Of a stretch of 64,000 bases of DNA, positions 2,702-53,277 are shown one piece after another; the first letter of the stretch is position 1, and every line of letters starts with the position of its first letter. The notes beneath the pieces are model-generated. The model was not told the origin of the DNA, searched no databases, and was given only the letters and a program-made list of their open reading frames with translations. The translations under genes were made by a program, and so were the position numbers. The DNA lies in assembly GCF_014861485.1 (NCBI RefSeq), contig NZ_JACZHT010000008.1:1-64000 (forward strand), written 5' to 3'. Origin of the DNA: Phaeovibrio sulfidiphilus (GTDB lineage Bacteria; Pseudomonadota; Alphaproteobacteria; Rhodospirillales; Rhodospirillaceae).

Positions 2702-3303
2702 GCCCTGTGTTCCTCAGTAAAAAGGCTAAAACGAATGACGAGAGGCGCCGATTTGGACACAAAACAACTGTTAAGGGCCTGAATAGGCTCTAACAAAGGC
2801 AAGATTGGGTCCAAAATGCGACGCCTTTTGCGGTATTTTCGACTTTACGTGGTTTACAGCCGGCTCTCAAGGAAAAAAGGCCAAAAACTGCGGCTTTCCG
2901 GACGCGAGGACCAAAAAATCGTCTCCGGCCCCGAAAGCTGCGACGGAAAGGTGCGCCACACCCCCGATACCCCTGCAAACGGGCCCGGGCGAGGTCCGCA
3001 GCAGCGACGGAACCGGCGCCGCTCTACGCACGCCTAACGGGAATCGGGTACGAGCCCCGGCCCGGACGCATGCAGCCCGGGAGACCCGGGCACACCCCGG
3101 CGCTCCGTGACCGGAAACGGGGCCGGGGATCCCCTCCGGCCGGACAGGCCAAAGACAGGATCCGGTCCGGCGCCCTGTGGGTGCCCGCCCCCACCGGATG
3201 TTTTTTTCACGTCCCAGATTGACTTTAACCAGGGCACGGCCTACCAATCGGCAGGGTTCCCTCGCGGAACCTGCAGGGGAACGACCCCGCCTGCAACGGC
3301 CCC
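2702..3303. other. Spacer between mlaA and tRNA-Ser
   Basis: 602 bp without a supportable gene. The part next to mlaA (about 2700-2830) is noticeably richer in A and T and probably carries the mlaA promoter on the minus strand. The rest is GC-rich with no recognisable RNA. The tRNA-Ser promoter must lie at its right end. Confidence 0.4.
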
Positions 3304-3391
3304 GGAGAGGTGGCAGAGTGGTCGATTGCGCCGGTCTTGAAAACCGGAGAGGGGCAACCCTCCGTGGGTTCGAATCCCACCCTCTCCGCCA
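3304..3391 (+). tRNA. tRNA-Ser (anticodon TGA)
   Basis: An 88-nt class II tRNA with CCA encoded. The acceptor arms ggagagg (3304-3310) and cctctcc (3381-3387) pair perfectly. The anticodon loop cttgaaa reads TGA, a long variable arm follows, and the T-loop is ggttcgaatcc. It reads UCA serine codons. Confidence 0.97.
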
Positions 3392-3821
3392 CAGGCCAGC
3401 GCGAGGGCCTGGCACCGCCGAAACCCCACACACCACACGCACACGTCAGACCGCACTCCCCGCCTGCAGGCAGGAGCCGGGTGTCCCGCTCCATCTCCTG
3501 TTCGGTTGTCGGGGGAAGGGCCCAGCCGGGCCAGCGGCGAAGAGCGGCCAACCCGCCGTACAGCAGGCGAACACCGCCGGGGAACGTGGCGGCACGCCCG
3601 TCAGACCGGGCACACCCCACGCCCGCAGGCCGGTGGCAAACCCCATCGATGCCGCCCGCCCGCAGACAAGGGGGGCGCGCACCACCGGGATCCCATCACG
3701 GACACCGCAGACGGCAGCCCCCTGAAGCCACGGGCGCACGCAAAACGGCGGCCCGCTCGGGACACCGGAGACGGCGCGGAACAGAGCCCAAGGGGCGTAC
3801 TGATGGTTCGGGGAGGGAAGC
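3392..3821. other. Spacer between tRNA-Ser and tRNA-Arg
   Basis: 430 bp between two convergent tRNA genes. No credible coding frame, repeat or terminator with a T-run was found. Confidence 0.4.
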
Positions 3822-3898
3822 TGGTGCGTCCGGCGGGATTCGAACCCACGACCTTTGGCTTCGGAGGCCAACACTCTATCCAGCTGAGCTACGGACGC
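3822..3898 (-). tRNA. tRNA-Arg (anticodon CCG)
   Basis: A 77-nt tRNA on the minus strand with CCA encoded (tgg at 3822-3824 on the plus strand). The acceptor arm gcgtccg pairs with cggacgc, and the anticodon loop ctccgaa reads CCG, decoding CGG arginine codons, a common codon in this GC-rich genome. D- and T-arms are canonical. Confidence 0.97.
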
Positions 3899-4258
3899 CC
3901 TCTTCGTGAGGCTCCTGCGACCCTGTTCCAACGACAGGCCCGGAGCGCTCTTCAGTCCGGCATCCCCACCGGGAACGCCAGAGCGCGGAACTTAACCTGG
4001 AAGAGCCCGTCCGCCAAGGAAAAAAGTGCGCCCGCGGCCCGTAAAGACCAAACCGCCGGAACCGGGCCCGCGAAGAGCCGAAACAGCACGCCCTCCGGTG
4101 GCAAGTCGACCGCCACAAACGCAGAGGCAGGCCGGATCCGGCACAGAGCGACGCCCCCCGGGGCGCCCCCCGCTCCAGCCGGGCACACCCGAGTGCGCTT
4201 GTCCCTTCCGCTCCGCGTCCTGCCGGCCCTGCCCCGCCCGGGCCCGCGCCGGAGGCAC
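3899..4258. other. Spacer downstream of the CoA-transferase gene
   Basis: About 360 bp without a recognisable gene. It lies between the tRNA-Arg promoter side and the terminator of the leftward CoA-transferase gene. Confidence 0.4.
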
Positions 4259-4291
4259 AAAAAAACCCGGAGGCGGAACACCGCCTCCGGG
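4259..4291 (-). terminator. Intrinsic terminator after the CoA-transferase gene
   Basis: A perfect 11-bp stem, cccggaggcgg (4266-4276) with ccgcctccggg (4281-4291), closes over a 4-nt loop. Seven A residues precede it at 4259-4265, which is a U-tract on the minus strand. It sits 28 bp past the stop codon of the leftward gene. Confidence 0.9.
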
Positions 4292-4319
4292 CAGACGCAA
4301 GAAACCGGACAGGCCGGGA

Positions 4320-5834
4320 TCAGGCTCTCATGGACCCGGCTTTGACAAACCGGGAGTGCCACGACAGGGCCTCGTCCAGGATGACCGGCGTGTGCTGGCC
4401 AACCGACACATCGCGGGCGCGCTTGTAGTAGTCCAGAAGCGCCGGGCGGTAATCCGGGTGCGCACAGTTGCGGATGATGGTCTCCGCGCGCTGCTTCGGG
4501 GACAGGCCGCGCAGGTCCGCAAGGCCCTGCTCGGTGACGATGACGCGCACGTCCTGGGAGCCGTGGTCCACGTGGCAGGCCTGGGGCACGATGGCCGAGA
4601 TGGCGCCTCCCTTGGCCGTGGAGGGGGTCATGAAGACGGAGATCGACGCCGAGCGGGCAAAGTCACCCGAGCCGCCGATTCCGTTCATCACCCGCGAGCC
4701 CATGACATGGGTGGAGTTCACGTTGCCGTAGATGTCCGTCTCGATCAGCGAGTTCATGGCAATACAGCCCAGGCGGCGGATGACCTCCGGGTTGTTCGAG
4801 ACGTCCTGGGGACGCAGGATCATCTTGTCCTGGAACTCGTGCATGTGGTCGTTGATGTACTTGGCCATGTCCGGCGACAGGGAGAACGCGGTGGCCGAGG
4901 CCATGCGCAGCTTCCCGGCCTTCAGCAGGTTGATCATGCCGTCCTGGATCACCTCGGTGTAGGAGGTCATGTTCTCGAACGGCGAGTCCATCAGGCCGCA
5001 CAGCACCGCGTTGGCGATGTTGCCCACGCCGGACTGGAGCGGGAACAGGTTCTCCGGCATCCGGCCCATCTTCACCTCGTGGGACAGGAAGTCCAGGAGG
5101 TTGGCGGCAATCTTCATCTCCACCTCTCCGGGATCGGAGAAGGGCGCGTTGCGGTCCGGGATGTGGGTCTCGACCACGGCCACGACCTTGGACGGATCCA
5201 CGGTCATGTAGGGCGAGCCGATCCGGTCGTCGGCCTTCATGATGGGGATGGGCTGGGTGTTCGGCGGGGGCGCGATGGTGTAGAAGTCGTGCATGCCCTC
5301 CAGGTCCGCATTCTGCCAGGAGTTGACCTCCAGGATGACCTGCTCGGCCGCATCAAGCCACGCCTGGTTGTTCCCGGCGGACGACGAGGGGACAAGACGC
5401 CCGTCGCTCTTGATGGCGGTGACCTCGATGACCGCGGTGTGAAGGGGCCCCATGGCGCCGCTCTTCACCAGGGGAGTGGAGTGGCTGAGGTGATAGTCGA
5501 AGTAATGCGCCTCTCCGCGATTGATCCGGTCGCGCATGTGGGTGTCAGACTGGTAGGGCATGCGGAACTCGATGCCGTTCACTTCGGCAAGGGCTCCGTC
5601 CAGCTCGGGGCCGGTGGACGCGCCCGTCCACAGGTTCACGCGGAAGGTCCGCCCGGAGTCGGCTTCCTCCTTGATTTTGGCGGCAAGGGCCAGGGGAACG
5701 GCCTTGGGGTAGCCCGACCCGGTAAATCCGCTGGCACCAATGGTCGTGCCGGGCTTGATGAATGCGATGGCTTCCTCGGCGGTCATCACCTTGGAGCGCA
5801 TCGTCTCGCACGCAACGCGGCTGTCTTTAAGCAA
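4320..5834 (-). CDS. Acetyl-CoA hydrolase / succinyl-CoA:acetate CoA-transferase family
   Basis: Class I CoA-transferase family enzyme, 504 residues. Relatives transfer CoA from succinyl-CoA to acetate (AarC/ScaC type) or are annotated as acetyl-CoA hydrolases. The glutamate expected to carry the covalent acyl/CoA intermediate is the E in SLIETDIYGNVNSTH, followed by the conserved GSRVMNGIGGSGDF loop. The C-terminal QGLADLRGLSPKQRA is also typical. The first in-frame start is TTG at 5834, with AAGGAG upstream; this gives the N-terminus usual for the family before the RSKV segment. An ATG 11 codons in (about 5801) lacks a good ribosome site. The gene stands alone with its own terminator. Transferase and hydrolase activity cannot be separated from sequence; CoA-transferase is more likely. 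Confidence 0.9.
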   Translation of the reverse strand: MLKDSRVACETMRSKVMTAEEAIAFIKPGTTIGASGFTGSGYPKAVPLALAAKIKEEADSGRTFRVNLWTGASTGPELDGALAEVNGIEFRMPYQSDTHMRDRINRGEAHYFDYHLSHSTPLVKSGAMGPLHTAVIEVTAIKSDGRLVPSSSAGNNQAWLDAAEQVILEVNSWQNADLEGMHDFYTIAPPPNTQPIPIMKADDRIGSPYMTVDPSKVVAVVETHIPDRNAPFSDPGEVEMKIAANLLDFLSHEVKMGRMPENLFPLQSGVGNIANAVLCGLMDSPFENMTSYTEVIQDGMINLLKAGKLRMASATAFSLSPDMAKYINDHMHEFQDKMILRPQDVSNNPEVIRRLGCIAMNSLIETDIYGNVNSTHVMGSRVMNGIGGSGDFARSASISVFMTPSTAKGGAISAIVPQACHVDHGSQDVRVIVTEQGLADLRGLSPKQRAETIIRNCAHPDYRPALLDYYKRARDVSVGQHTPVILDEALSWHSRFVKAGSMRA

Positions 5835-6024
5835 AGCTTAGTCTCCTTCTTCCAACATCCAGCTTCATGCCTGTGGGAGGCCCGAGGGAACGGGCCGGCT
5901 ATCGTGAAGTGACACTGCGGATCCCTGGGGCAGGTCCGCGCGTTTCCCGAAGGTGGGGCCGCACCCGACGGAAAGGAACGGGGGCGGCCGGGAATATTTC
6001 AGCTGCGAGGCTCTTCAGCGCACC

Positions 6025-7536
6025 TCACATCTTTTCGGGTGTGCAGTACTGCCCGCGGCTTTTCAGCGCCAGGCAGAGATTCGTCGCCACGCCGGACTCC
6101 AGCGGTCCGGCCAGCAGGCGGATGAAACGCCCCTCCCCTGTCAGGGTCACGGCGCGCAGCACGGACTGGCTGCTCCCGAGAAGGGCGGGGTATCGGGCCT
6201 GGAGTTCCTTCCATCCCTGCCGGGCCGCATCATCGGAGCGGTACGAGGCAAGGTGGACCAGGGTCGTGCGGGGCGGGGTGCCATCCGGCGCCCCCGCGGT
6301 CCCGGCGACCGGTCCGGCGGACGCTCCCGACGTTGCCACGCCCGATGCCGGGCCGCCGGACGCTGCCGGGCCGGACGGACCCGTGGGGCGGGTCGCGGCC
6401 GGTTCGGCCGAGGCTGGCCGGGCTCGCGGTCCGGACAGGGCCGCAAGCTCCCGTTTGGCCTCCGGCTCGGTCACCAGTCCGGTGGCGAGCAGGGTGTTCA
6501 GGCGCCTTGCGTATGTGGCCCGGGCGGCTTCCGACGTCCCGGGCTGGGCCACGGGCTGCCAAGCCGTGGGGCGGTCCGGCAGCAGGGCGTCCAGGATGGC
6601 GGTCCGCTCGGCGTCAAAGCGGCTCTGGGTGATCCCCCCTTTCTGGAGGGTCAGGCGAAGGTCGTTCAGGCGCCCGGACACCTCGGACGGACCGGGTGCT
6701 GGCATCAGGGCCCGGGTCGAGGGCGGCGGAAAGGTCAGGGGCAGCACCGCGCCCAGATTGGCAAGGCGGCGGGCGTCAAACTCGCCGCGGGAGATCAGCT
6801 TCTCGTCATAGAGGCGATGCAAGATGCGCAGCCGCTCCATGGCCGCCTGGGACAGGCCCTGGGGCCCTGGGGCCTGTGCCGGGGACGTCCTGGCCGCTGT
6901 CCGGTCCGGCTCCGCCACGGGGCCGACCACATCGGACCAGCCCGCGGCCGGGGTCATGGCGGCTCCCGCCCTGGCCCTCGGCTGCCCGGCCCTGGAGGCC
7001 GAAGCCTGAGCCGGATCCGGCTTCGCCAGTCCGCCGGAGAGAATCCGGTCCGCAACGGCCCGGGATCCGGTCACCGTCGGCTGGAGGGCAATGGCCGTAC
7101 CCCCCTGCCCCTCGGTCAGGGCACGGGTCTCGGGAAGCATCTTCAGCACATCCAGATTCTTGCGGGCAATCTCGGTGATGGGAACGGCCTCCAGCGTGAA
7201 CCACTGCCCGAGGACCGCCTCGGCGCCCGGTTTCAGGGCCAGAAGCGTCTGATAGGTCTGGATGGCCTCGGCCGGGCGGTCCGTGTTCTGATAGACAAGG
7301 GCCTGGGCCAGAAGCGCATAGGGGTTCCGGTCATCCGCGACCAGGGCGCGGCTGGAATAGCTCTCGGCGTTCAGGAAATCGCCCTTGGCCAGGGCCGCCA
7401 GGGCCACGTCCGAGGCCCGGATCGATGTGGTGATATAGGTTCCGTCCCGGGAGACTCCGGGACCGCAGGCGCCCACAAGAAGGGCGACCGAGAACATCAG
7501 ACCCGCAGGGAATGCACTCTTTCGAAGCATGGCCAT
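6025..7536 (-). CDS. Lipoprotein with TPR-like region and C-terminal SPOR domain
   Basis: Predicted envelope lipoprotein of 503 residues. The N-terminus is a signal peptide with lipobox VGAC. A TPR-like helical region follows (about residues 40-130, with AESYSSRALVADDRNPYALLAQALVY). Then come long Ala/Pro-rich linkers with two short helical segments that both carry an LY/LRxTLxxGxI pattern (around EKLISRGEFDARR and KGGITQSRFDAER). A C-terminal SPOR domain starts near TLVHLASYRSDDAARQGW and ends GQYCTPEKM. SPOR domains bind denuded peptidoglycan glycans at division sites, so a role at the septum or cell wall is likely but not shown. Linkers of this kind evolve fast, and exact function is unknown. 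Confidence 0.75.
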   Translation of the reverse strand: MAMLRKSAFPAGLMFSVALLVGACGPGVSRDGTYITTSIRASDVALAALAKGDFLNAESYSSRALVADDRNPYALLAQALVYQNTDRPAEAIQTYQTLLALKPGAEAVLGQWFTLEAVPITEIARKNLDVLKMLPETRALTEGQGGTAIALQPTVTGSRAVADRILSGGLAKPDPAQASASRAGQPRARAGAAMTPAAGWSDVVGPVAEPDRTAARTSPAQAPGPQGLSQAAMERLRILHRLYDEKLISRGEFDARRLANLGAVLPLTFPPPSTRALMPAPGPSEVSGRLNDLRLTLQKGGITQSRFDAERTAILDALLPDRPTAWQPVAQPGTSEAARATYARRLNTLLATGLVTEPEAKRELAALSGPRARPASAEPAATRPTGPSGPAASGGPASGVATSGASAGPVAGTAGAPDGTPPRTTLVHLASYRSDDAARQGWKELQARYPALLGSSQSVLRAVTLTGEGRFIRLLAGPLESGVATNLCLALKSRGQYCTPEKM

Positions 7537-7636
7537 GTCTCTGTTCCAGAGTCCGTTCAGTTCCGTTCAGTAATGACACCCCATCGGGCACCATTGCGCA
7601 AGGCAAGGTAACCACGGAAGGTGAACAGAAGACAAG

Positions 7637-7663
7637 CCGGGAACTGTGCTCCCGGTCTTTTTT
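7637..7663 (+). terminator. Terminator-like hairpin with T-run on the plus strand
   Basis: The stem ccggga/tcccgg (7637-7642 with 7650-7655) has a 7-nt loop and is followed by tcTTTTTT. No plus-strand gene ends here; both neighbours are leftward. On the minus strand it is followed only by a weak T-rich stretch, so it may serve the RluC gene poorly or end an unseen plus-strand RNA. Confidence 0.55.
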
Positions 7664-7729
7664 CGCGTTTCCGCCTGCCGGACCGGGACAGTTCCCGGGG
7701 AAAAACGCCCTGCAAGGCCCTCAAACCGC

Positions 7730-8785
7730 TTACAGATCCGTATCAAGCCAGCCTGAGAACGGATCGGGCGCATCAGAGAGGTGAAAGCCCAGCGCGGCCA
7801 TGGAGGCCCGGAAGTGGGCCGGGACCGGGGCGGTGACCTCGAGGCGCCCGCCGTCCGGATGGGGGATCGACAGGGCGCGGGCGTGAAGGTGGAGCTGGCG
7901 GGCAAAGCCGTCCCCGGACAGGAACGCCCCGACCCCGGCGTACTTGCCGTCGCCCAGGATCGGCGTCCCGAGCGCGGTGGCGTGGACCCGCAGCTGGTGG
8001 GTCCGGCCGGTGCGCGGGCGCATCTCCAGCCAGGCGGCCGCCTTGCCCGCATGATCCACCATGCGGTAGTCCGTGACCGCCGCCCGTCCGTCGTCGCTGA
8101 TGGTCATGCGCTCGCCCCGGGCCGCGGCCTCCTTGGCAAGGGGGGCGTTGATCGTGCCCTGCTCGAGCTCGGGCACCCCCACCACCAGAGCCCAGTAGAT
8201 CTTCTGGGTGTCCCGGTTCCGGAAGGCGCGGGTCAGGAACTGGGCCGCCCGCAGGGTCCGGGCCAGCACAAGAACGCCGCTGGTGTCCTTGTCCAGCCGG
8301 TGCACCAGGCGGGGGCGCTCGCTGCCGTCGCGAGTGAACAGGTCCAGCAGGGCGTCAAGGTGCCGGGTTGTGCCCGTGCCGCCCTGAACCGCCAGCCCGG
8401 CCGCCTTGTCCAGCACCAGGACCGAGGCATCCCGGTGCAGCACCGAGGCCTCGAGGGCGCGCTCCTCCTCCGGTGTGGGCGGGCGCGGAGCCCGGGGCGC
8501 CCGCGGAACCCGGGGCTCTGTCCCGTCCCCGGACGCGGTGTCCGCGGAGACCTCACCGATATCGTGGGGCACCTGCACCCGGTCGCCTCCGGCCAGACGG
8601 TCACTGCTTTTTTTGGCCCGGCTTCCGTTGACCCGGACCGCCCCCTTGCGCAGGAGCTTCTCGATGCGCCCCTGGGTCAGCCCGGGGAACTGCCGGCGGA
8701 GCCAGCGGTCAAGGCGGACGTCGCCCCCGTCCTCGGGAACATCAAGGGTCAGGGGAGACTGGCGGGGCATTTCGGCGTGGATCAT
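7730..8785 (-). CDS. rluC: RluC/RluD-family 23S rRNA pseudouridine synthase
   Basis: Predicted pseudouridine synthase of 351 residues that isomerises uridines in large-subunit rRNA. An N-terminal S4 RNA-binding domain (about residues 20-75, LDRWLRRQFPGLTQGRIEKLL) is followed by a disordered Pro/Arg linker and then the catalytic domain. The catalytic motif HRLDKDTSG is at residues 162-170, with Asp165 as nucleophile. The later conserved segments GRTHQLRVHA and GDGKYAG are also present. RluC is the closest assignment because of the S4 domain and length, but RluD-type specificity cannot be excluded. It is divergent from the gene at 9091, with about 305 bp between them. Confidence 0.9.
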   Translation of the reverse strand: MIHAEMPRQSPLTLDVPEDGGDVRLDRWLRRQFPGLTQGRIEKLLRKGAVRVNGSRAKKSSDRLAGGDRVQVPHDIGEVSADTASGDGTEPRVPRAPRAPRPPTPEEERALEASVLHRDASVLVLDKAAGLAVQGGTGTTRHLDALLDLFTRDGSERPRLVHRLDKDTSGVLVLARTLRAAQFLTRAFRNRDTQKIYWALVVGVPELEQGTINAPLAKEAAARGERMTISDDGRAAVTDYRMVDHAGKAAAWLEMRPRTGRTHQLRVHATALGTPILGDGKYAGVGAFLSGDGFARQLHLHARALSIPHPDGGRLEVTAPVPAHFRASMAALGFHLSDAPDPFSGWLDTDL

Positions 8786-39632: not shown

Positions 39633-40472
39633 CTAGCGGGCTTCCAGAGCCCGGGCCAGGGCGGCAAAGCCCTCCACCGGAATGGTCTCGGCCCGGTCGG
39701 TCGGAGCAAGGCCCGCGGCCTCGCACAGGGCCTCCGGATCCCCGAGGGGCGCCAGGCTGGAGCGGAGCATCTTGCGCCGCTGGCCGAAGGCCGCCGCCGT
39801 CACCCGTTCCAGCAGGTCGATCCGGGCCGGTGCCAGGGGCTCGGGCAGCGGATCCAGGCGCACCACGGTGGAGACCACCTTGGGCGGCGGCACAAAGGCC
39901 CTGGGGTTCAGGTCAAACTGGGGCGAGACCCGGCAGAGCCACTGGGTCAGCACGGACAGTCGCCCATAGGCCTTGGTTGCGGGGCGGGCTGCCAGCCGGT
40001 CCACAACCTCTTTCTGGAACATGAGCACCAGACACTGGAACTCGGTGATCTGCTTCAGCCAGCCGATCAGCAGTTCGGTGGCGATATTGTAGGGCAGGTT
40101 GGCCACGATCACGCGCGGAGCCTCGCCCAGGGCGGCCACGTTCACCTGCAGGGCGTCCCCCTCGATAATCTCGAGCCGCCCGCCGGACACGGCCGCAATC
40201 TGGTCCAGAGCCGCCCTCGGACGGGGATCGCGCTCGATGGCGTACACCCGGCACGCACCGGTGCCCAGCAGGGCCCGGGTCAGACCGCCCGGACCGGGGC
40301 CGACCTCGATCACGGTGGCCCCGTCCAGATCCCCGGCACACCGGGCAATCTTGGCCGTTAAATTCAGATCCAGAAGAAAGTTCTGGCCCAGGGACTTCCG
40401 GGCCGCAAGGCCGTGGGTCTCGATCACCTCCCGCAGGGGAGGCAGCCGGGACAGGTCATCCCCGGCGCTCAT
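39633..40472 (-). CDS. rsmA: 16S rRNA dimethyladenosine transferase RsmA (KsgA)
   Basis: Predicted methyltransferase of 279 residues dimethylating two adenosines at the 3' end of 16S rRNA. It has the N-terminal [19 protein letters not shown], the SAM motif [16 protein letters not shown], and the catalytic NLPYN in [14 protein letters not shown]. The C-terminal [15 protein letters not shown] is also typical. The ATG at 40472 overlaps the pdxA stop by 4 nt (ATGA). It is the last gene of the lptD-surA-pdxA-rsmA series. Confidence 0.95.
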
Positions 40473-41548
40473 GAGGCACCGGCTGCGAAAGCGCGGCGGG
40501 CACGGACCATGCTGCACGCAAGGTCCAGCGCGCTCACGAGGCTGTCCGCACGGGCGGTTCCGGCGCCGGCCAGGGCATAGGCCGTGCCGTGATCCGGAGA
40601 GGTGCGCACAAAGGGCAGCCCCAGGGTTACGTTCACCGCCCGGTGGAAATCCAGCGTCTTGATGGGGATCAGGGCCTGGTCGTGGGTCATGCACAGGGCC
40701 GCATCATAGGTGGCGCGCGCCTCCTCGTGGAACAGGGTGTCGCAGGGAAAGGGACCGTCGGCCTGGATGCCGGCAGCCTGGAGGTGCTCGACGGCGGGAC
40801 GGATCACGGTGTCCTCCTCGGTTCCCATCAGGCCGCCCTCCCCCGCGTGCGGGTTCAGGGCCGAAATCGCCAGACGGGGATGCTCGAGCCCGAAGTCCCG
40901 TTTCAGGGCCGCGCTCACCGTGCGGGCAGTCTGGACGATCCGGTCTGTGGTCAGGCTTGCGATGGCCTCGCGCAGGGACACGTGCACCGTCACCGGAACC
41001 ACCCGAAGGCCGGGCGCTGCCAGCATCATCACGGGCACACCGTCACAGGGCCACAGGCGCCGGGCCAGCACCCCCAGGAAATCCGTGTGCCCGGGATGGG
41101 GAAAACCGGCCGCCTGGAGCACGGCCTTGTTGACGGGCAGCGTCACCAGCGCCGACGCCTCGTCCCCGGCCACCAGGCCAACCGCGTCCTCGATGGCCGC
41201 AAGAGTGTGGGCAGCGCTGGCGGGGTCGGGCACGCCGAACCGGACAGACGCGGCCAGGGGCACCGAGGGCTCGAGCACCGGAAGCGCATGGGAGAACACC
41301 TCCCGGGCCTCCGCCGCCGACGAAATGCGCCGAACCGGGCCAGCGCCGGTGTGCCGGGAGACGGACTCCAGCCAGTCGGCCGAGCCCATAACGAAGAACG
41401 GAACGGTGTCGGGAGTGCCGCGCCGGACGCAGACCTCCCAGGCCTTCAGGGCCAGCTCGGGGCCGACCCCGGCCGGGTCTCCCAGGGACACCGCAAGGGG
41501 CGCCGGAAACGCGGGAGACCTGTCAGGGCAAAAACAATCAGAGGACAC
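40469..41548 (-). CDS. pdxA: 4-hydroxythreonine-4-phosphate dehydrogenase
   Basis: Enzyme of pyridoxal phosphate synthesis, 359 residues. The start region has [19 protein letters not shown]; the metal-binding and active-site segments are [36 protein letters not shown], and [36 protein letters not shown] closes the conserved part. The start is GTG at 41548 with AAGG upstream; no ATG fits. It overlaps rsmA by 4 nt and follows surA by 19 nt. Confidence 0.94.
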
Positions 41549-41567: not shown

Positions 41568-42875
41568 TTAGATACGGATATCGATAATGGCCTGCTGTCT
41601 CAGGTCACGAAGGCGACGCTGGGAGAGGCCCTCCAGCTTCCGCTGGACGAGACGGTCGCGCAGTTCGTCGCGCGGCGGGATCCCCTCGGGCGGGCGCTCG
41701 CACACCATGAAATAGGCCTCGCCGTCATCAAATTTGAGAGCCGGCGAGACCTGCCCAACGCCAAGCCCCTGGATGCGGCTGCGGATCTCGGGCGCAAGGG
41801 ACTCGGGCCCGACCATGGCCACCGGAGCGGACGGCGCGCCCAGCTCCTCGGCCAGGCGGTTGAAGGCCTCGCAGCCCCGCAGAGTGGACACCTGGGAGCG
41901 CAGGGCCTGGAAACGGTCCGGCGGCAGGGCCTGGGGACCGGCGGAGGGCAGAACAATGCGGGCCAGCGGAGTGCCGTTCCCAGCCGAGCCCGCCGTGCGC
42001 TTGGAGCGCAGAAGGACGATCTCGTACCCGCCGTAGGTCCGAATGGGGCGGGACACGTTGCCCGCCTGCATGGTGGAGAGGGCCTCCAGCACCTCGGGAT
42101 CGAAGTCACCGGGGGCGACCCAGCCCATGTCACCGCTGCGCTCGGCGCTGGCCGAGCGGGAGAACTGGCGGGCCAGGGCCCCGAAGCTGGCCCCTTTCCT
42201 GAGCTGCTCCAAAAGGCGGTCCGCCAGGGCCCGGACCTCGGCCTCCTGGCCGGGCGAGTCGACCGCAAGGAAGATGTTGGCAATCAGGTACTCGGGCTGG
42301 CCCAGGTTGCGCTTGAGCTGGTTTTCATAGATGGCCAGCTCCTCCGGCGAGACGCTGGCCCGACCGAGAAGGGTCCGGCGCACATAGTTGACCCAGCTGA
42401 TCTCGGCCTTGACCTGCCGCAGCACCGCATCCCACTCGAGACCGGCGGCCCTCAGGTTCCGCTCCAGGGCGCCCGGAGGCATTCCGTTCTGCTGCTCCAG
42501 ACGGCGGACACCGCCCTGGATTTCCTCGGGGCTGGCAATCGTGCCGGCCCGGGTGGCCTCCTGAAGCTTGAGGGTCTCCTCGATCAGGGCCCGCAGGATC
42601 TGGGGCGCAACGCGCTGGGCCACCTCCGGCGTGTTGGGCATTCCCGAGGTCGCCATCACCAGGGCCATGCGGGTGTTCAGATCCCGCACGGAGATCACGT
42701 CGTTGTTGACGACGGCAGCGATACGCTGGGCCGAGCCGCTCTGGGCACGGGGGTCGGGGGCCCGGGCAGACACCGGGGCGGGAGCCGCAACAGCGACAAG
42801 AAGACTGCACAGGCAGGCGAGCACAGGCACACCCGAAAGGATTCGCACCGAGATCAGTTTTGAAAACACGGCCAT
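41568..42875 (-). CDS. surA: Periplasmic peptidyl-prolyl isomerase/chaperone SurA
   Basis: Chaperone for outer-membrane proteins, 435 residues. An N-terminal signal peptide (about 1-38) is followed by the SurA N-terminal helical domain starting RIAAVVNNDVISVRDLNTRM. Two parvulin-type regions follow: one with FSRSASAERSGDMGWVAPGDF and GGYEIVLLRSKR, and a second, degenerate one with FDDGEAYFMVCERP. The order is as in other SurA proteins. It sits between lptD, whose assembly in the outer membrane SurA is known to assist, and pdxA. Confidence 0.9.
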   Translation of the reverse strand: MAVFSKLISVRILSGVPVLACLCSLLVAVAAPAPVSARAPDPRAQSGSAQRIAAVVNNDVISVRDLNTRMALVMATSGMPNTPEVAQRVAPQILRALIEETLKLQEATRAGTIASPEEIQGGVRRLEQQNGMPPGALERNLRAAGLEWDAVLRQVKAEISWVNYVRRTLLGRASVSPEELAIYENQLKRNLGQPEYLIANIFLAVDSPGQEAEVRALADRLLEQLRKGASFGALARQFSRSASAERSGDMGWVAPGDFDPEVLEALSTMQAGNVSRPIRTYGGYEIVLLRSKRTAGSAGNGTPLARIVLPSAGPQALPPDRFQALRSQVSTLRGCEAFNRLAEELGAPSAPVAMVGPESLAPEIRSRIQGLGVGQVSPALKFDDGEAYFMVCERPPEGIPPRDELRDRLVQRKLEGLSQRRLRDLRQQAIIDIRI

Positions 42876-42893: not shown

Positions 42894-45800
42894 TCAGTCC
42901 AGTCCGGGCGCCGGCGAGAAGGAATAGCTTCCCAGGGTCTTGAGGGTCACGGTCATCATCAGGGAGGTTCCCCCCTTGATCCCGTACTCCCGGGTGAAGT
43001 CCTTGGAGAACTTGGTAGCAACAATGAGACACTCATCCTCGTAGTTCAAGCCGAAGGCCGTCCGGACGGTCTCTTTTTTATCCAGGTTGTAGATATAGCC
43101 ACCCCGCAGCGACCAGTTCTCGCCAAGCTGGAAGCGCAGCGTTCCGGAGACCTCCTCCAGGCTGGTGTGGGTGTGGCCGTCAATGGCGGTGATATCCTCG
43201 GCGTAGACGTAGCCGATGTCCCCGGAGATCGGGCCGTAGTCCCCGTAGACCTTCAGGTCATGACGCCGCGGGGCCAGGTTTTCCTGGGACAGCTGGGCAT
43301 CGTACTGCAGCGTGACATGGTCCGCCGGGTAGACCCGCATCCGGGTGAGCAGGTTCGAGAGGTTCTTCTCCTGCCCCGAGCCGGGACGAAACAGGGCCCG
43401 GTCCTTCTGGAAGCGGTAGGACTGGCCCACATCCAGATCGAAGCTGGGGCCGCTGTCCCCGATGTAGCCGTAGTGAAGCGCGTAGGACACCCACTGTCCG
43501 CCCTCCACCCGGTCGTAGCCGGGCACCCGCGAGGGCCGGAACAGGTTGTTCATGTCGAGGGCAAAGTAGCGGCTGTCCTCGTTGGCGATTTCCTTGGGGT
43601 TGTTCGAGGGCAGAGCGGCGAACACCCCCACCTTGGGCTCCAGAATGTGGGTCGAGGTGGCCGAGGCCCGCACCAGCGGGTGGCGCCAGACCAGGCTTCC
43701 CTGGGGCACAAACCGGCCCCTGGACCCCGAGAAGGTCTCGCCATTGCGCATGACAAGATCCCGGGCGTGGTAGATGTCGCCACGCAGACCGGCGGAAAGG
43801 GTGTAGGCACCGCCCAGGCCGTCGTAGAACGGCAGCTCGTAGGCCACCCGCCCGATCAGGCGCGAGGAGTCCGTGCCGGTGCGCCGCTGAAGCACCATGG
43901 AGTTGAGGCTGGCCTCAACGTGTCCGTTGCTCCACAGGGGATCCGAGCGCAGCAGCACATCCGTGTAGAACGGAATGGCCGGGAGGGTCTTCTGGTGGAA
44001 CTCCTCGGTCACGGTCTGGAAATAGAAGCCCTCGACGCTGGCCCGGGAGCGGTTGCCGTAGCCCTCGATTGCCAGGCGGTTCACAAGGAAGTCCGCGTCG
44101 TTGACCGGGTTGATATCCATGCGGCGCAGATACTTGGCCTCCCGGGTCAGGCCGCTCTCGAAGCGCGCGGACCAGACCGGGTTCAGGTTGAAGGCACCCT
44201 TGGTCTCGTAATAGCCCTGGAAGCGCTCGTTGCGGTCCAGCGGCGTGAACACGGTCCGCAGCCACAGCTCCCCGTCATCGAAATTGCGGGCCACGGTGCC
44301 GTCAAAGCTGAAGTGGTCCCGGCTGCCGAAGCGGGGCACAAGAATGGCGTCGCCGTAGTCGTCCATCACCGCGTAGTACGGCAGCAGAAGCTCGATCCCG
44401 CGGCGGCTGCCCGTGCCCACGGACGGCGCCATGATCCCGGAGCGCCGGTACACCGTCGGATCCGGCTGGGTCAGGAACGGCACATACAGCGTGGGAATGC
44501 CCAGGAGCTCCAGCCAGGCGTCCCGGAAGATGATTTCCTTTTTTTCCTCGTCGTGGATGACCTTGGCCGCCTTGATCTGCCAGATGGGCGGACGGGTCGG
44601 GCCGCTCTCGGGCAGGGTCGAGCACGGACGGCACATGGTGTACACGCCCCGGGACAGCTCCTTGCGCCGGGCCCCGGAGTCCTGCTCGGCGTAGGCGCCG
44701 GCCATTCGGCCTCCCTCGCCGGTCAGAACCTGGACGTTGCGCACAAAGCCGTCCTTCAGGTCGTCGGAGAGCTCCATGTACTCGGCGAACGAGGCGCCGC
44801 CCTTCGGATCGTCCAGCTTCACCAGCGAGACGTTGCCCGAGGCGCTCAGGCGGTTCTGGGCCCGGTTGAAGCTGACCACATCGGCGCGAAGGGCGTTCTC
44901 GCCGGACACCACAAGCACGTTGCCCCGGGCGGTGACCAGATCCAGGTCGTCATCGCGGACCATCTCGTCCGCCGAGATGAACACCTGTCCCGGAGCCAGA
45001 ATATCCGAGGCCCGGTCCTCGTGCTCCTCGTGGGGGTCCAGCCCCATGGACGACGGGTTCGGAGCCAGGCCCGCCGGAAGACGCAGGCCCCCGGTCTCGC
45101 CGTACCCGTAAATGCCGACAATCGACGGCGCCCCGAAACTGCGAGCGGACCGACCGGACCGGGAGGACGCGCCGGAAGAGGCCATCGCCGCCGATCCGGG
45201 ATACGGGGATCCGAAAGTGTTAAAGGAGGTCGCGGGACTGGACGATGTGCCCATATCCAGGGCGCCCACCATAGGCAGGGCCGGAGCACTGGCCCCATAG
45301 CCGCCGGAGCTACCACGAGCACCGGTGGACGCCGGGCGCCCTCCACGCGTCGGGGCCTGATAGCCGCCGCTCGTGCCCATGTCCAGGGCGCCCACCATAG
45401 GCAGGGCCGGAGCACTGGCCCCATAGCCCCCGGAGCCACCACGAGCACCGGTGGACGCCGGGCGCCCGCCACGCGTCGGAGCCTGATAGCCGCCGCTCGT
45501 ACCCATATCCAGGGCGCCCACCATAGGCAGGGCCGGAGCGTTCGCCCCGTAACCCCCGGAACCACCGCGGGAACCGGAGGACGCCGGGCGCCCGCCACGC
45601 GTCGGAGCCTGATAGCCGCCGCTCGTACCCATGTCCAGGGCCCCCACCATGGGCAGGGCCGGAGCGTTCGCCCCGTAACCCCCGGAACCACCGCGGGAAC
45701 CGGAGGACGCCGGGCGCCCGCCACGGGGCGGGGCCTGATAGCCGCCGCTCGTACCCATGTCCAGGGCCCCCACCATGGGCAGGGCCGGAGCACTGGCCCC

Positions 45801-46094
45801 ATAGCCCCCGGAGCTACCACGAGCCCCGGAGGACGCGGACCGCCCGCCACGCGTCTGAGCCTGATAGCCGCCGCTCATGCCCGGATCCAGAGCCCCCACC
45901 ATGGGCAGACCCACGGCGCCTTGCTGGGCCCAGGCCGGATTACTCCCCAGCCACCCCCCCGCCGCAACCACTCCGGCGCAGCAGCATGCAAGGGCTCCCG
46001 GCCGGAGCCACCCCTTCTGGGGGAGGGCCCGGTCATGGGAGCGCTGGCCCGGGCTACCCGGTGCCGGTCGTCGCTTTCGTTCAAACCGTGTCAT
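42894..46094 (-). CDS. lptD: LPS-assembly protein LptD with N-terminal repeat extension
   Basis: Outer-membrane protein that inserts lipopolysaccharide into the outer leaflet, 1066 residues against about 750-850 usual. After a basic N-terminus and a signal sequence (cleavage near NPAWAQQ), residues about 60-270 are five 42-residue repeats with the marker LPMVGALDMGTSGGYQAP, plus the start of a sixth. The LptA-like periplasmic domain follows (QVFISADEMVRDDDLDLVTA, ENALRADVVSFNRAQNRLSA). Then comes the beta-barrel, starting with the Cys-containing GVYTMCRPCSTLPES and including the lumenal WQIKAAKVIHDEEKKEIIF. It ends LGSYSFSPAPGLD. The ATG at 46094 was chosen because it begins the signal-bearing N-terminus. 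surA follows 18 bp later. Confidence 0.93.
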   Translation of the reverse strand: MTRFERKRRPAPGSPGQRSHDRALPQKGWLRPGALACCCAGVVAAGGWLGSNPAWAQQGAVGLPMVGALDPGMSGGYQAQTRGGRSASSGARGSSGGYGASAPALPMVGALDMGTSGGYQAPPRGGRPASSGSRGGSGGYGANAPALPMVGALDMGTSGGYQAPTRGGRPASSGSRGGSGGYGANAPALPMVGALDMGTSGGYQAPTRGGRPASTGARGGSGGYGASAPALPMVGALDMGTSGGYQAPTRGGRPASTGARGSSGGYGASAPALPMVGALDMGTSSSPATSFNTFGSPYPGSAAMASSGASSRSGRSARSFGAPSIVGIYGYGETGGLRLPAGLAPNPSSMGLDPHEEHEDRASDILAPGQVFISADEMVRDDDLDLVTARGNVLVVSGENALRADVVSFNRAQNRLSASGNVSLVKLDDPKGGASFAEYMELSDDLKDGFVRNVQVLTGEGGRMAGAYAEQDSGARRKELSRGVYTMCRPCSTLPESGPTRPPIWQIKAAKVIHDEEKKEIIFRDAWLELLGIPTLYVPFLTQPDPTVYRRSGIMAPSVGTGSRRGIELLLPYYAVMDDYGDAILVPRFGSRDHFSFDGTVARNFDDGELWLRTVFTPLDRNERFQGYYETKGAFNLNPVWSARFESGLTREAKYLRRMDINPVNDADFLVNRLAIEGYGNRSRASVEGFYFQTVTEEFHQKTLPAIPFYTDVLLRSDPLWSNGHVEASLNSMVLQRRTGTDSSRLIGRVAYELPFYDGLGGAYTLSAGLRGDIYHARDLVMRNGETFSGSRGRFVPQGSLVWRHPLVRASATSTHILEPKVGVFAALPSNNPKEIANEDSRYFALDMNNLFRPSRVPGYDRVEGGQWVSYALHYGYIGDSGPSFDLDVGQSYRFQKDRALFRPGSGQEKNLSNLLTRMRVYPADHVTLQYDAQLSQENLAPRRHDLKVYGDYGPISGDIGYVYAEDITAIDGHTHTSLEEVSGTLRFQLGENWSLRGGYIYNLDKKETVRTAFGLNYEDECLIVATKFSKDFTREYGIKGGTSLMMTVTLKTLGSYSFSPAPGLD
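45240..45920 (-). repeat. 126-bp coding minisatellite in lptD
   Basis: Five tandem 126-bp units and the start of a sixth. The plus-strand words ataggcaggg / atgggcaggg recur every 126 bp from 45271 to about 45900. Each unit encodes 42 residues rich in Gly, Ser, Ala and Arg. Units differ at a few positions (ASSG/ASTG, GSRG/GARG, ANA/ASA). Confidence 0.95.
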
Positions 46095-51756: not shown

Positions 51757-53277
51757 CTACTGCAAAGACCGAGCCCTGAGGAGCACCTGTGCTGCCTGGC
51801 TCTCTTTCTGTTGCCGTGCCTCGCCCTCCAGCGTTTCCGCCTGGGCGCCGTAAACCCCGCCAAGTGCCGCCCAGACCCGCCAGTCCTTCGGGTCCAGATC
51901 CCGGGCGGCCCGCAGGGCGTTCTCCGCCCCGTCCAGAAGCGCAACCCGGCGGGCGCCGCTGGCGGCCTCGGCCCGGTCACGCAGCAGGAGGCCCAGCCCC
52001 ATCCAAGCCTTCGTATACCCCGGATCGAGGGCTGTGGCCTTGCGAAAAAATCCGGCCGCATCGTCAAGAAGGCCGGGCACCCGCTCGTCCTCCAGGTACG
52101 CGGCCGCCTCCATGTGCAGGAACGCAAGCTCGGACCATTGGGAGGCCGTGTGGGACGAGCCGTGCTCCAGCGCCGTGCGGTACACCCGCAGCGCCTCGTC
52201 CCACCGGGACGCGGCCTCATCCCCCGAGGCCAGACGCGCAAGGCCCCACAGGGACATGGCCAGGCGCTCGTGCCAGAGGTCGTTGCCGCTGTCCACCGCC
52301 AGCGCCTTGCGCCAGGCCTCGGCCGAGGAGGCCAGGAACACACGGCGCTCGTCACCGCGGGCCAGTTCCGCCTGCCGGTAATTCAGATCGCCCAGGCTGG
52401 ACCAGGCAACCGCGTTGGACGCATCCAGGGACACGGCCCGGCTCAGGGCGGCCTCGGCGTCGGCAAAGCGCCGGTCGCGCTCCGTGGATTCGGGACCGGA
52501 CCGGGCCTGGAGCAGCCGCAGCGCGCCCAGATTGCTCCAGCCGGTGCTGCTTCCGGGATCCAGGGCCGTGGCCTTCTCAAGAGCCTGCTCCGCCTCCCTG
52601 ACAAGGGTGTGGGCCTCGCCCCCCTCCCCCGCATCCAGGGCCAGCGTGCTCAGGATGCCTCCCAGCGTGCGCCAGCCCCAGGCGTTGTGCGGCTCCTTCT
52701 GCACCACGGTGCGCAGAACCCCGGCGGCCCGGGAATGGAACTGCCGGGCCTCGAGGCTGCTTTGGGCCTCGGTGCCCTGCACATGCAAAAGCGAGGCAAG
52801 GGAGGCATGGACCCCCACGTCCGCCCCCGGATCCAGGTCGAGCACTTTCCCGTAGGCGGCCGTCGCCTCGCGCCAGAGCCGGGCCCGGTCCGGACCGCTG
52901 GACGCGTGGGCACGGCGGGCCAGATCATACCCCCGGGCGAGCCAGTCCCGGGCCCGGGTGTCCTGAAAATCCGGCGACAAAGGCGGAATGGCGTTTGCTC
53001 CGGAGGACAAGGCGGGGGGCGCGGTTCCGGACTCGGCCTCGCGGAACTCCGCCCCGGCAGTTGTCTCGCGGGGCTCCGCCACGACACCCGTCTCGCGGGG
53101 CTCCGCCCCGGTGGCTGTTTCGCGGGGCTCCGCCCCGGTGGCTGTCCCGGGGGACTGCGTCCCAGTCGGGGCCACCCCGTCCGTCCGGGCCAGGGCCCCG
53201 CTGCTCCCCCACGGGGAGGCTGGCAGCAGCAGGGCCAGCGCCAGGGCAAGGACAGCCGATGGGTTCGGGGCCGACAT
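51757..53277 (-). CDS. Exported TPR protein 2
   Basis: A 506-residue protein. The signal peptide (MSAPNPSAVLALALALLLPA) is followed by a linker holding four 9-residue repeats like GAEPRETAT (about residues 43-78). TPR units follow, such as ATAAYGKVLDLDPGADVGVH, AEQALEKATALDPGSSTGWS, AEAALSRAVSLDASNAVAWS and AAGFFRKATALDPGYTKAWM. The two adjacent exported TPR proteins are similar in layout, though not close copies. It begins 6 bp after the thiE stop, so it is surely in the same operon. No function can be assigned. Confidence 0.8.
   Translation of the reverse strand: MSAPNPSAVLALALALLLPASPWGSSGALARTDGVAPTGTQSPGTATGAEPRETATGAEPRETGVVAEPRETTAGAEFREAESGTAPPALSSGANAIPPLSPDFQDTRARDWLARGYDLARRAHASSGPDRARLWREATAAYGKVLDLDPGADVGVHASLASLLHVQGTEAQSSLEARQFHSRAAGVLRTVVQKEPHNAWGWRTLGGILSTLALDAGEGGEAHTLVREAEQALEKATALDPGSSTGWSNLGALRLLQARSGPESTERDRRFADAEAALSRAVSLDASNAVAWSSLGDLNYRQAELARGDERRVFLASSAEAWRKALAVDSGNDLWHERLAMSLWGLARLASGDEAASRWDEALRVYRTALEHGSSHTASQWSELAFLHMEAAAYLEDERVPGLLDDAAGFFRKATALDPGYTKAWMGLGLLLRDRAEAASGARRVALLDGAENALRAARDLDPKDWRVWAALGGVYGAQAETLEGEARQQKESQAAQVLLRARSLQ
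53041..53148 (-). repeat. 27-bp coding repeat, four copies
   Basis: Units at 53041, 53068, 53095 and 53122 share GCGGGGCTCCGCC and encode the 9-residue GAEPRET-type repeats of the TPR protein linker. The last two units are almost identical. Confidence 0.85.

Follow-up and report, generated by a model that had tools for sequence, protein, structure and literature searches.

The window (the whole stretch of DNA analysed, 64,000 nucleotides) carries lptD, surA, pdxA and ksgA in that order on the minus strand (Table 1). LptD inserts lipopolysaccharide (LPS) into the outer membrane; it is usually essential and is treated as having little in front of its jellyroll domain.

Table 1. Features of the lptD locus of Phaeovibrio, with positions in the window.
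Feature	Position	Strand	Description
lptD	42894..46094	minus	1066 aa (stop codon included in span); Pfam LptD, PF04453
signal peptide	45927..46094	minus	56 residues, long basic n-region, ends NPAWA before QQGAVG; cleavage site placed by eye
tandem array	45249..45908	minus	five 126-bp units and first 30 bp of a sixth; TRF score 982
non-repeated low-complexity rest of extension	44994..45248	minus	TSSSPATSF to DRASDI, to about residue 367; pLDDT <50 to residue 361
LptD core	42897..44993	minus	probable LptA-like jellyroll (start near residue 371) followed by beta-barrel; confident AlphaFold2 model from about residue 368
surA	41568..42875	minus	next after lptD; from ORF and translation; the lptD neighbour in G057 is SurA by Pfam
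pdxA	40469-41548	minus	named from translation and usual gene order
ksgA reading frame	39633-40694	minus	named from translation and usual gene order; true start probably inside frame

The original prediction that the gene encodes LptD was borne out by a PF04453 match of 152.8 bits (cut-off, 22.4) over residues 625 to 967 and by Foldseek, in which the modelled core best matched LptDE complexes (E values down to 1e-37, to 8h1s; also 9kn3). PF19838 matched residues 521 to 597 (23.3; cut-off, 22.5), and the LptA-like jellyroll family PF03968 scored 16.4 bits, below its cut-off of 20.4, over residues 373 to 420. In an AlphaFold2 model built from 37 sequences, confident beta strands begin at residue 371, and the core, mostly at pLDDT 80 to 97, has the normal LptD fold. 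In the LptD alignment, C488 and C491 are fully conserved and C1022 almost so, making them candidates for the cysteines of the jellyroll-barrel disulfides. A 999-aa ORF on the opposite strand was regarded as a shadow frame of this GC-rich gene.

The lptD frame is open across the array, without a stop. The ORF has a single signal-peptide-like stretch, ACCCAGVVAAGGWLGSNPAWA before QQG, with the hydrophobic segment ACCCAGVVAAGGWLG. As this stretch lies upstream of the array, the array must be part of the exported LptD. Translation from an upstream in-frame ATG (46346) is less likely, as it would put the beginning of the signal peptide about 84 residues into the protein.

The array starts six residues past a plausible signal-peptidase site and occupies the predicted place between the signal peptide and the LptA-like domain. 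The span first assigned to it, 45240 to 46094, does contain it, but the array proper is confined to 45249 to 45908 and the rest includes the signal sequence. Translation together with TRF (period, 126 bp; 5.2 copies; 91% matches; no indels; 45250 to 45908) confirmed the in-frame, Gly/Ser/Arg-rich 42-residue units marked by LPMVGALDMG: there are five full units, followed by these ten residues of a sixth. The array's TRF score is the highest of 16 rows in the window. LPMVGALD starts at 45908, 45782, 45656, 45530, 45404 and 45278, a spacing of exactly 42 residues; six occurrences compare with 0.18 expected by chance from the shuffled Phaeovibrio tail. The unit consensus, LPMVGALDxGxSGGYQAxxRGGRxASxGxRGxSGGYGAxAPA, is rich in Gly, Ala, Ser and Pro and carries a net positive charge (three Arg versus one Asp). 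The two Tyr and three Arg of each unit are invariant, and RGGR, SGGYG and SGGYQ are present in the units. A below-cut-off Pfam match of the array to Pelovaterin was taken as an effect of composition.

Between units, 3 to 24 of the 126 bases differ, units 2 and 3 and units 4 and 5 being the closest pairs, and the longest exact repeat in the array is 74 bp. The genome of P. sulfidiphilus DSM 23193, 2,585,463 bases in 31 contigs, was assembled from short reads stated to be 2x150 bp (PMC7714858), although the yield given there, shared out over the number of reads, comes to about 76 bp per read. Since 74 bp is shorter than the stated 150 bp, the order of the units should be resolved. Five units is nevertheless a minimum, because perfectly identical extra units would collapse in assembly. 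The array, known from one Phaeovibrio genome, is real and lies in an exported LptD.

We compared this protein with 36 other LptDs. The expectation that LptDs normally have no such extension held for 26 of the 37, which have just a short lead-in before the jellyroll. It failed for the nearest genera, in which nine relatives have an extension of about 120 to 190 residues at the same place: Rhodospirillum (G063, a 4,352,825-base chromosome that we take to be R. rubrum, and the MAG G006), Pararhodospirillum oryzae (G012), together with six species from a further genus. In a tree of LptD cores, rooted at midpoint only, the tail-bearing proteins and that of G057 (3,876,289 bases, presumably P. photometricum) form one clade of 11 with support 100/99, within which Phaeovibrio LptD groups with the two Pararhodospirillum proteins (100/98). 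G057 is the sole clade member without a tail, and its lptD has a disrupted start and no signal peptide. Parsimony counts two changes, one gain of the tail and the damaged G057 gene. On contig L123 of G057, lptD (3097-6003, minus) meets a polyketide-synthase frame (5412-8750, plus) head to head. Both 5′ ends look truncated, the synthase frame beginning at its acyltransferase domain, and the junction is possibly a rearrangement or a misassembly.

When a profile of the tail was run against 317 genomes of the order, every strong match was to an LptD of this clade; 385 genomes of the class yielded nothing convincing. The restriction to the clade is provisional, because 14 to 17 candidates were scored per genome and some true cases were missed, Phaeovibrio's own included. 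The DNA encoding the motif occurs nowhere else in the Phaeovibrio genome; with the provisional profile result, this speaks against reuse of the motif in other proteins. In 40 plasmid records with a distant LptD, the core alone matched among the matches listed. The titles and opening lines of abstracts among the literature matches listed for LptD with an N-terminal extension, a tandem repeat or Rhodospirillum describe no such tail.

All nine tail-bearing relatives share a motif, [VIL]G[AGS]L, with the array, in one or two copies near the mature N terminus. The tails of P. oryzae (LPMVGALG and LPLVGALN) and G063 (MTVLGGLD and IALVGALG) have two copies, the second 32 to 35 residues after the first; the Rhodospirillum MAG has LPMVGGLD, and the six species of the other genus have an [IV]LG[GS]L form, e.g., GGILGGLD. 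The first copy lies at tail residue 19 in three species and at 31 to 36 in the other six. When the relatives' tails are shuffled, 6 to 14% of them are expected to hold one copy of the loose form, x-x-x-[VIL]-G-[AGS]-L-x, a pattern chosen once the data had been seen. A second motif, [IVLF]-[RHT]-[LFM]-x-[PAT]-[IV]-[DPN], is present in 9/9 relatives and absent from Phaeovibrio, whose tail we therefore call a derived relative of the others rather than the same tail. In the tails of the other genus (L057, L058, L059, L060, L061 and L020), an LSARDLAGxGxGFRDF-like sequence is conserved at the start, and VRLRPV-like motifs occur as well. Because LptDs of the nearest genera are extended at this place and already hold the motif once or twice, the novelty in Phaeovibrio appears to be an expansion of an inherited tail and not a new or alien insertion. 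The first interpretation of the array is thus partly supported.

The units bear signs of constraint. Their pairwise dN/dS values are 0.07 to 0.37, and 19 of 29 changes are synonymous, versus an expectation of 10.4 +/- 2.3 when those base changes are placed at random (P about 5e-5; 19 was reached in 1 of 20,000 simulations, which used variable sites relative to the consensus and assumed no context effects). Four of the eight motif codons vary, all four silently, and all eight residues are invariant in the six copies; taken by itself, the motif is not significantly richer in silent changes than the remainder of the unit (Fisher P, 0.13). Homogenisation among units by itself would not favour silent change. 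The excess therefore argues against purely neutral slippage, and a dS of up to 0.60 argues that the copies are old, where the first reading envisaged slight differences and a copy number that may vary between strains. Constraint on old copies, with a motif common to several genera, suggests that the array is in use.

We propose, with our confidence evenly divided, a lineage-specific expansion inside an inherited disordered tail that displays a multivalent binding motif to a periplasmic partner. LptD of the Rhodospirillum-like clade would have gained, most simply once, a periplasmic tail of 120 to 190 residues with a short motif. In Phaeovibrio, the motif and its Gly/Ser/Arg/Tyr spacer would then have been duplicated to six motif copies, by slippage or unequal crossing-over as the form of the array suggests. 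Each copy may weakly dock a partner in the periplasm or outer membrane, be it an assembly chaperone, another Lpt protein, the Bam complex or peptidoglycan; a higher copy number would raise avidity and reach, helping to hold or assemble the translocon. We infer that the motif binds something and that its copy number matters. The tail is predicted to be disordered over its whole length, with pLDDT below 50 for nearly all of residues 1 to 361 and about 30 in the tail, in agreement with the flexible chain first envisaged; LptD topology would place this chain beside the Lpt bridge, as predicted. Against the proposal, the motif is undocked on LptD itself in the AlphaFold2 model, which is weak evidence on docking because the alignment has little depth there, and the second motif of the relatives is missing from Phaeovibrio.

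A neutral expansion, in which a minisatellite-prone genome duplicated a segment of a length-tolerant tail and the repeats merely lengthen a linker, is possible but rather unlikely. The mutation supply is indeed high, since tandem arrays are two to three times as frequent in Phaeovibrio as in two relatives: 30.0 per 100 kb in a 200-kb sample (L093-L102) and 23.4 in the window, versus 12.5 in G063 and 9.5 in G057 (L103-L122). Another exported-looking protein of the window (51757-53277, minus; TPR-like by eye) has a nine-residue array, about four copies of a TGAEPRETA-like unit at 53038-53153, directly after its signal peptide, and the relatives' tails vary in length and composition. The lptD array nevertheless scores far above the next Phaeovibrio array sampled (982 versus 339). 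Both the clear excess of silent changes and the fact that the expanded segment holds the one motif common to other genera weigh against neutrality.

It is improbable that the tail is a flexible linker in which selection acts on composition alone, its Gly/Ser/Arg content, disorder or peptidoglycan-spanning length being kept with no specific partner. The unit's composition and charge would suit such a linker, as would the predicted disorder. Composition would not explain the invariance of the motif in six copies, nor its being recognisable in genera whose spacers differ completely.

We hold it very unlikely that the tail is a sticker-and-spacer chain, its invariant Tyr and Arg and LPMVGALD making LptDE self-cluster under the outer membrane. 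If true, such clustering would concentrate LPS insertion sites and make the tail the periplasmic equivalent of RGG-type condensate domains. Despite the short-read assembly (PMC7714858), an assembly artefact or a wrong start codon that would leave the repeat absent or untranslated is barely credible, given the divergence of the units and their short exact repeats, the coding extension at the same place in relatives, and the lack of a signal-peptide-like stretch downstream of the array, so that translation beginning within or beyond the array would yield an LptD that is not exported.

A role of the tail as a replacement for LptE was ruled out, as an LptE-like gene is present: an ORF for a lipoprotein-like protein of 189 aa (L130:2860-3429, minus) lies between leuS and holA, the place that LptE occupies in G063. 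The Pfam model PF04390 (LptE) missed this ORF, which is too divergent for it, and a PF06144 search for holA in Phaeovibrio gave no match, the locus being reached via leuS.

Under the proposed multivalent display, the conservation of a motif within the disordered tail of one clade, and its six constrained copies in one species, would point to the LPS translocon making a periplasmic contact that has so far gone unrecognised. Rhodospirillum rubrum is a tractable organism for testing such a contact, and the natural copy-number series (1, 2, 6) lends itself to asking what multivalency does.

Several known systems invite comparison. Low-complexity RGG/Tyr domains (FUS-like) are sticker-and-spacer chains, which the Phaeovibrio units resemble in RGGR, SGGYG and SGGYQ and in their invariant Tyr and Arg; the tail is, however, bacterial and periplasmic, where RNA is absent, and the likeness is one of composition and residue conservation alone. 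Canonical LptDE (Escherichia coli, 9kn3 and 8h1s; Klebsiella, 5iv9) has the core fold (jellyroll, a probable one in Phaeovibrio, and barrel) and an LptE gene in common with Phaeovibrio but not the tail of about 310 residues that precedes the jellyroll there. The tails of Rhodospirillum (G063 and G006) and P. oryzae differ from that of Phaeovibrio in having no tandem array, in their Pro/Ala/Thr-rich spacers and in an IRLQPID-like motif that Phaeovibrio lacks, but these proteins share with it the same core (for P. oryzae, 48 to 53% identity according to the alignment used) and a disordered-looking extension at the same position.
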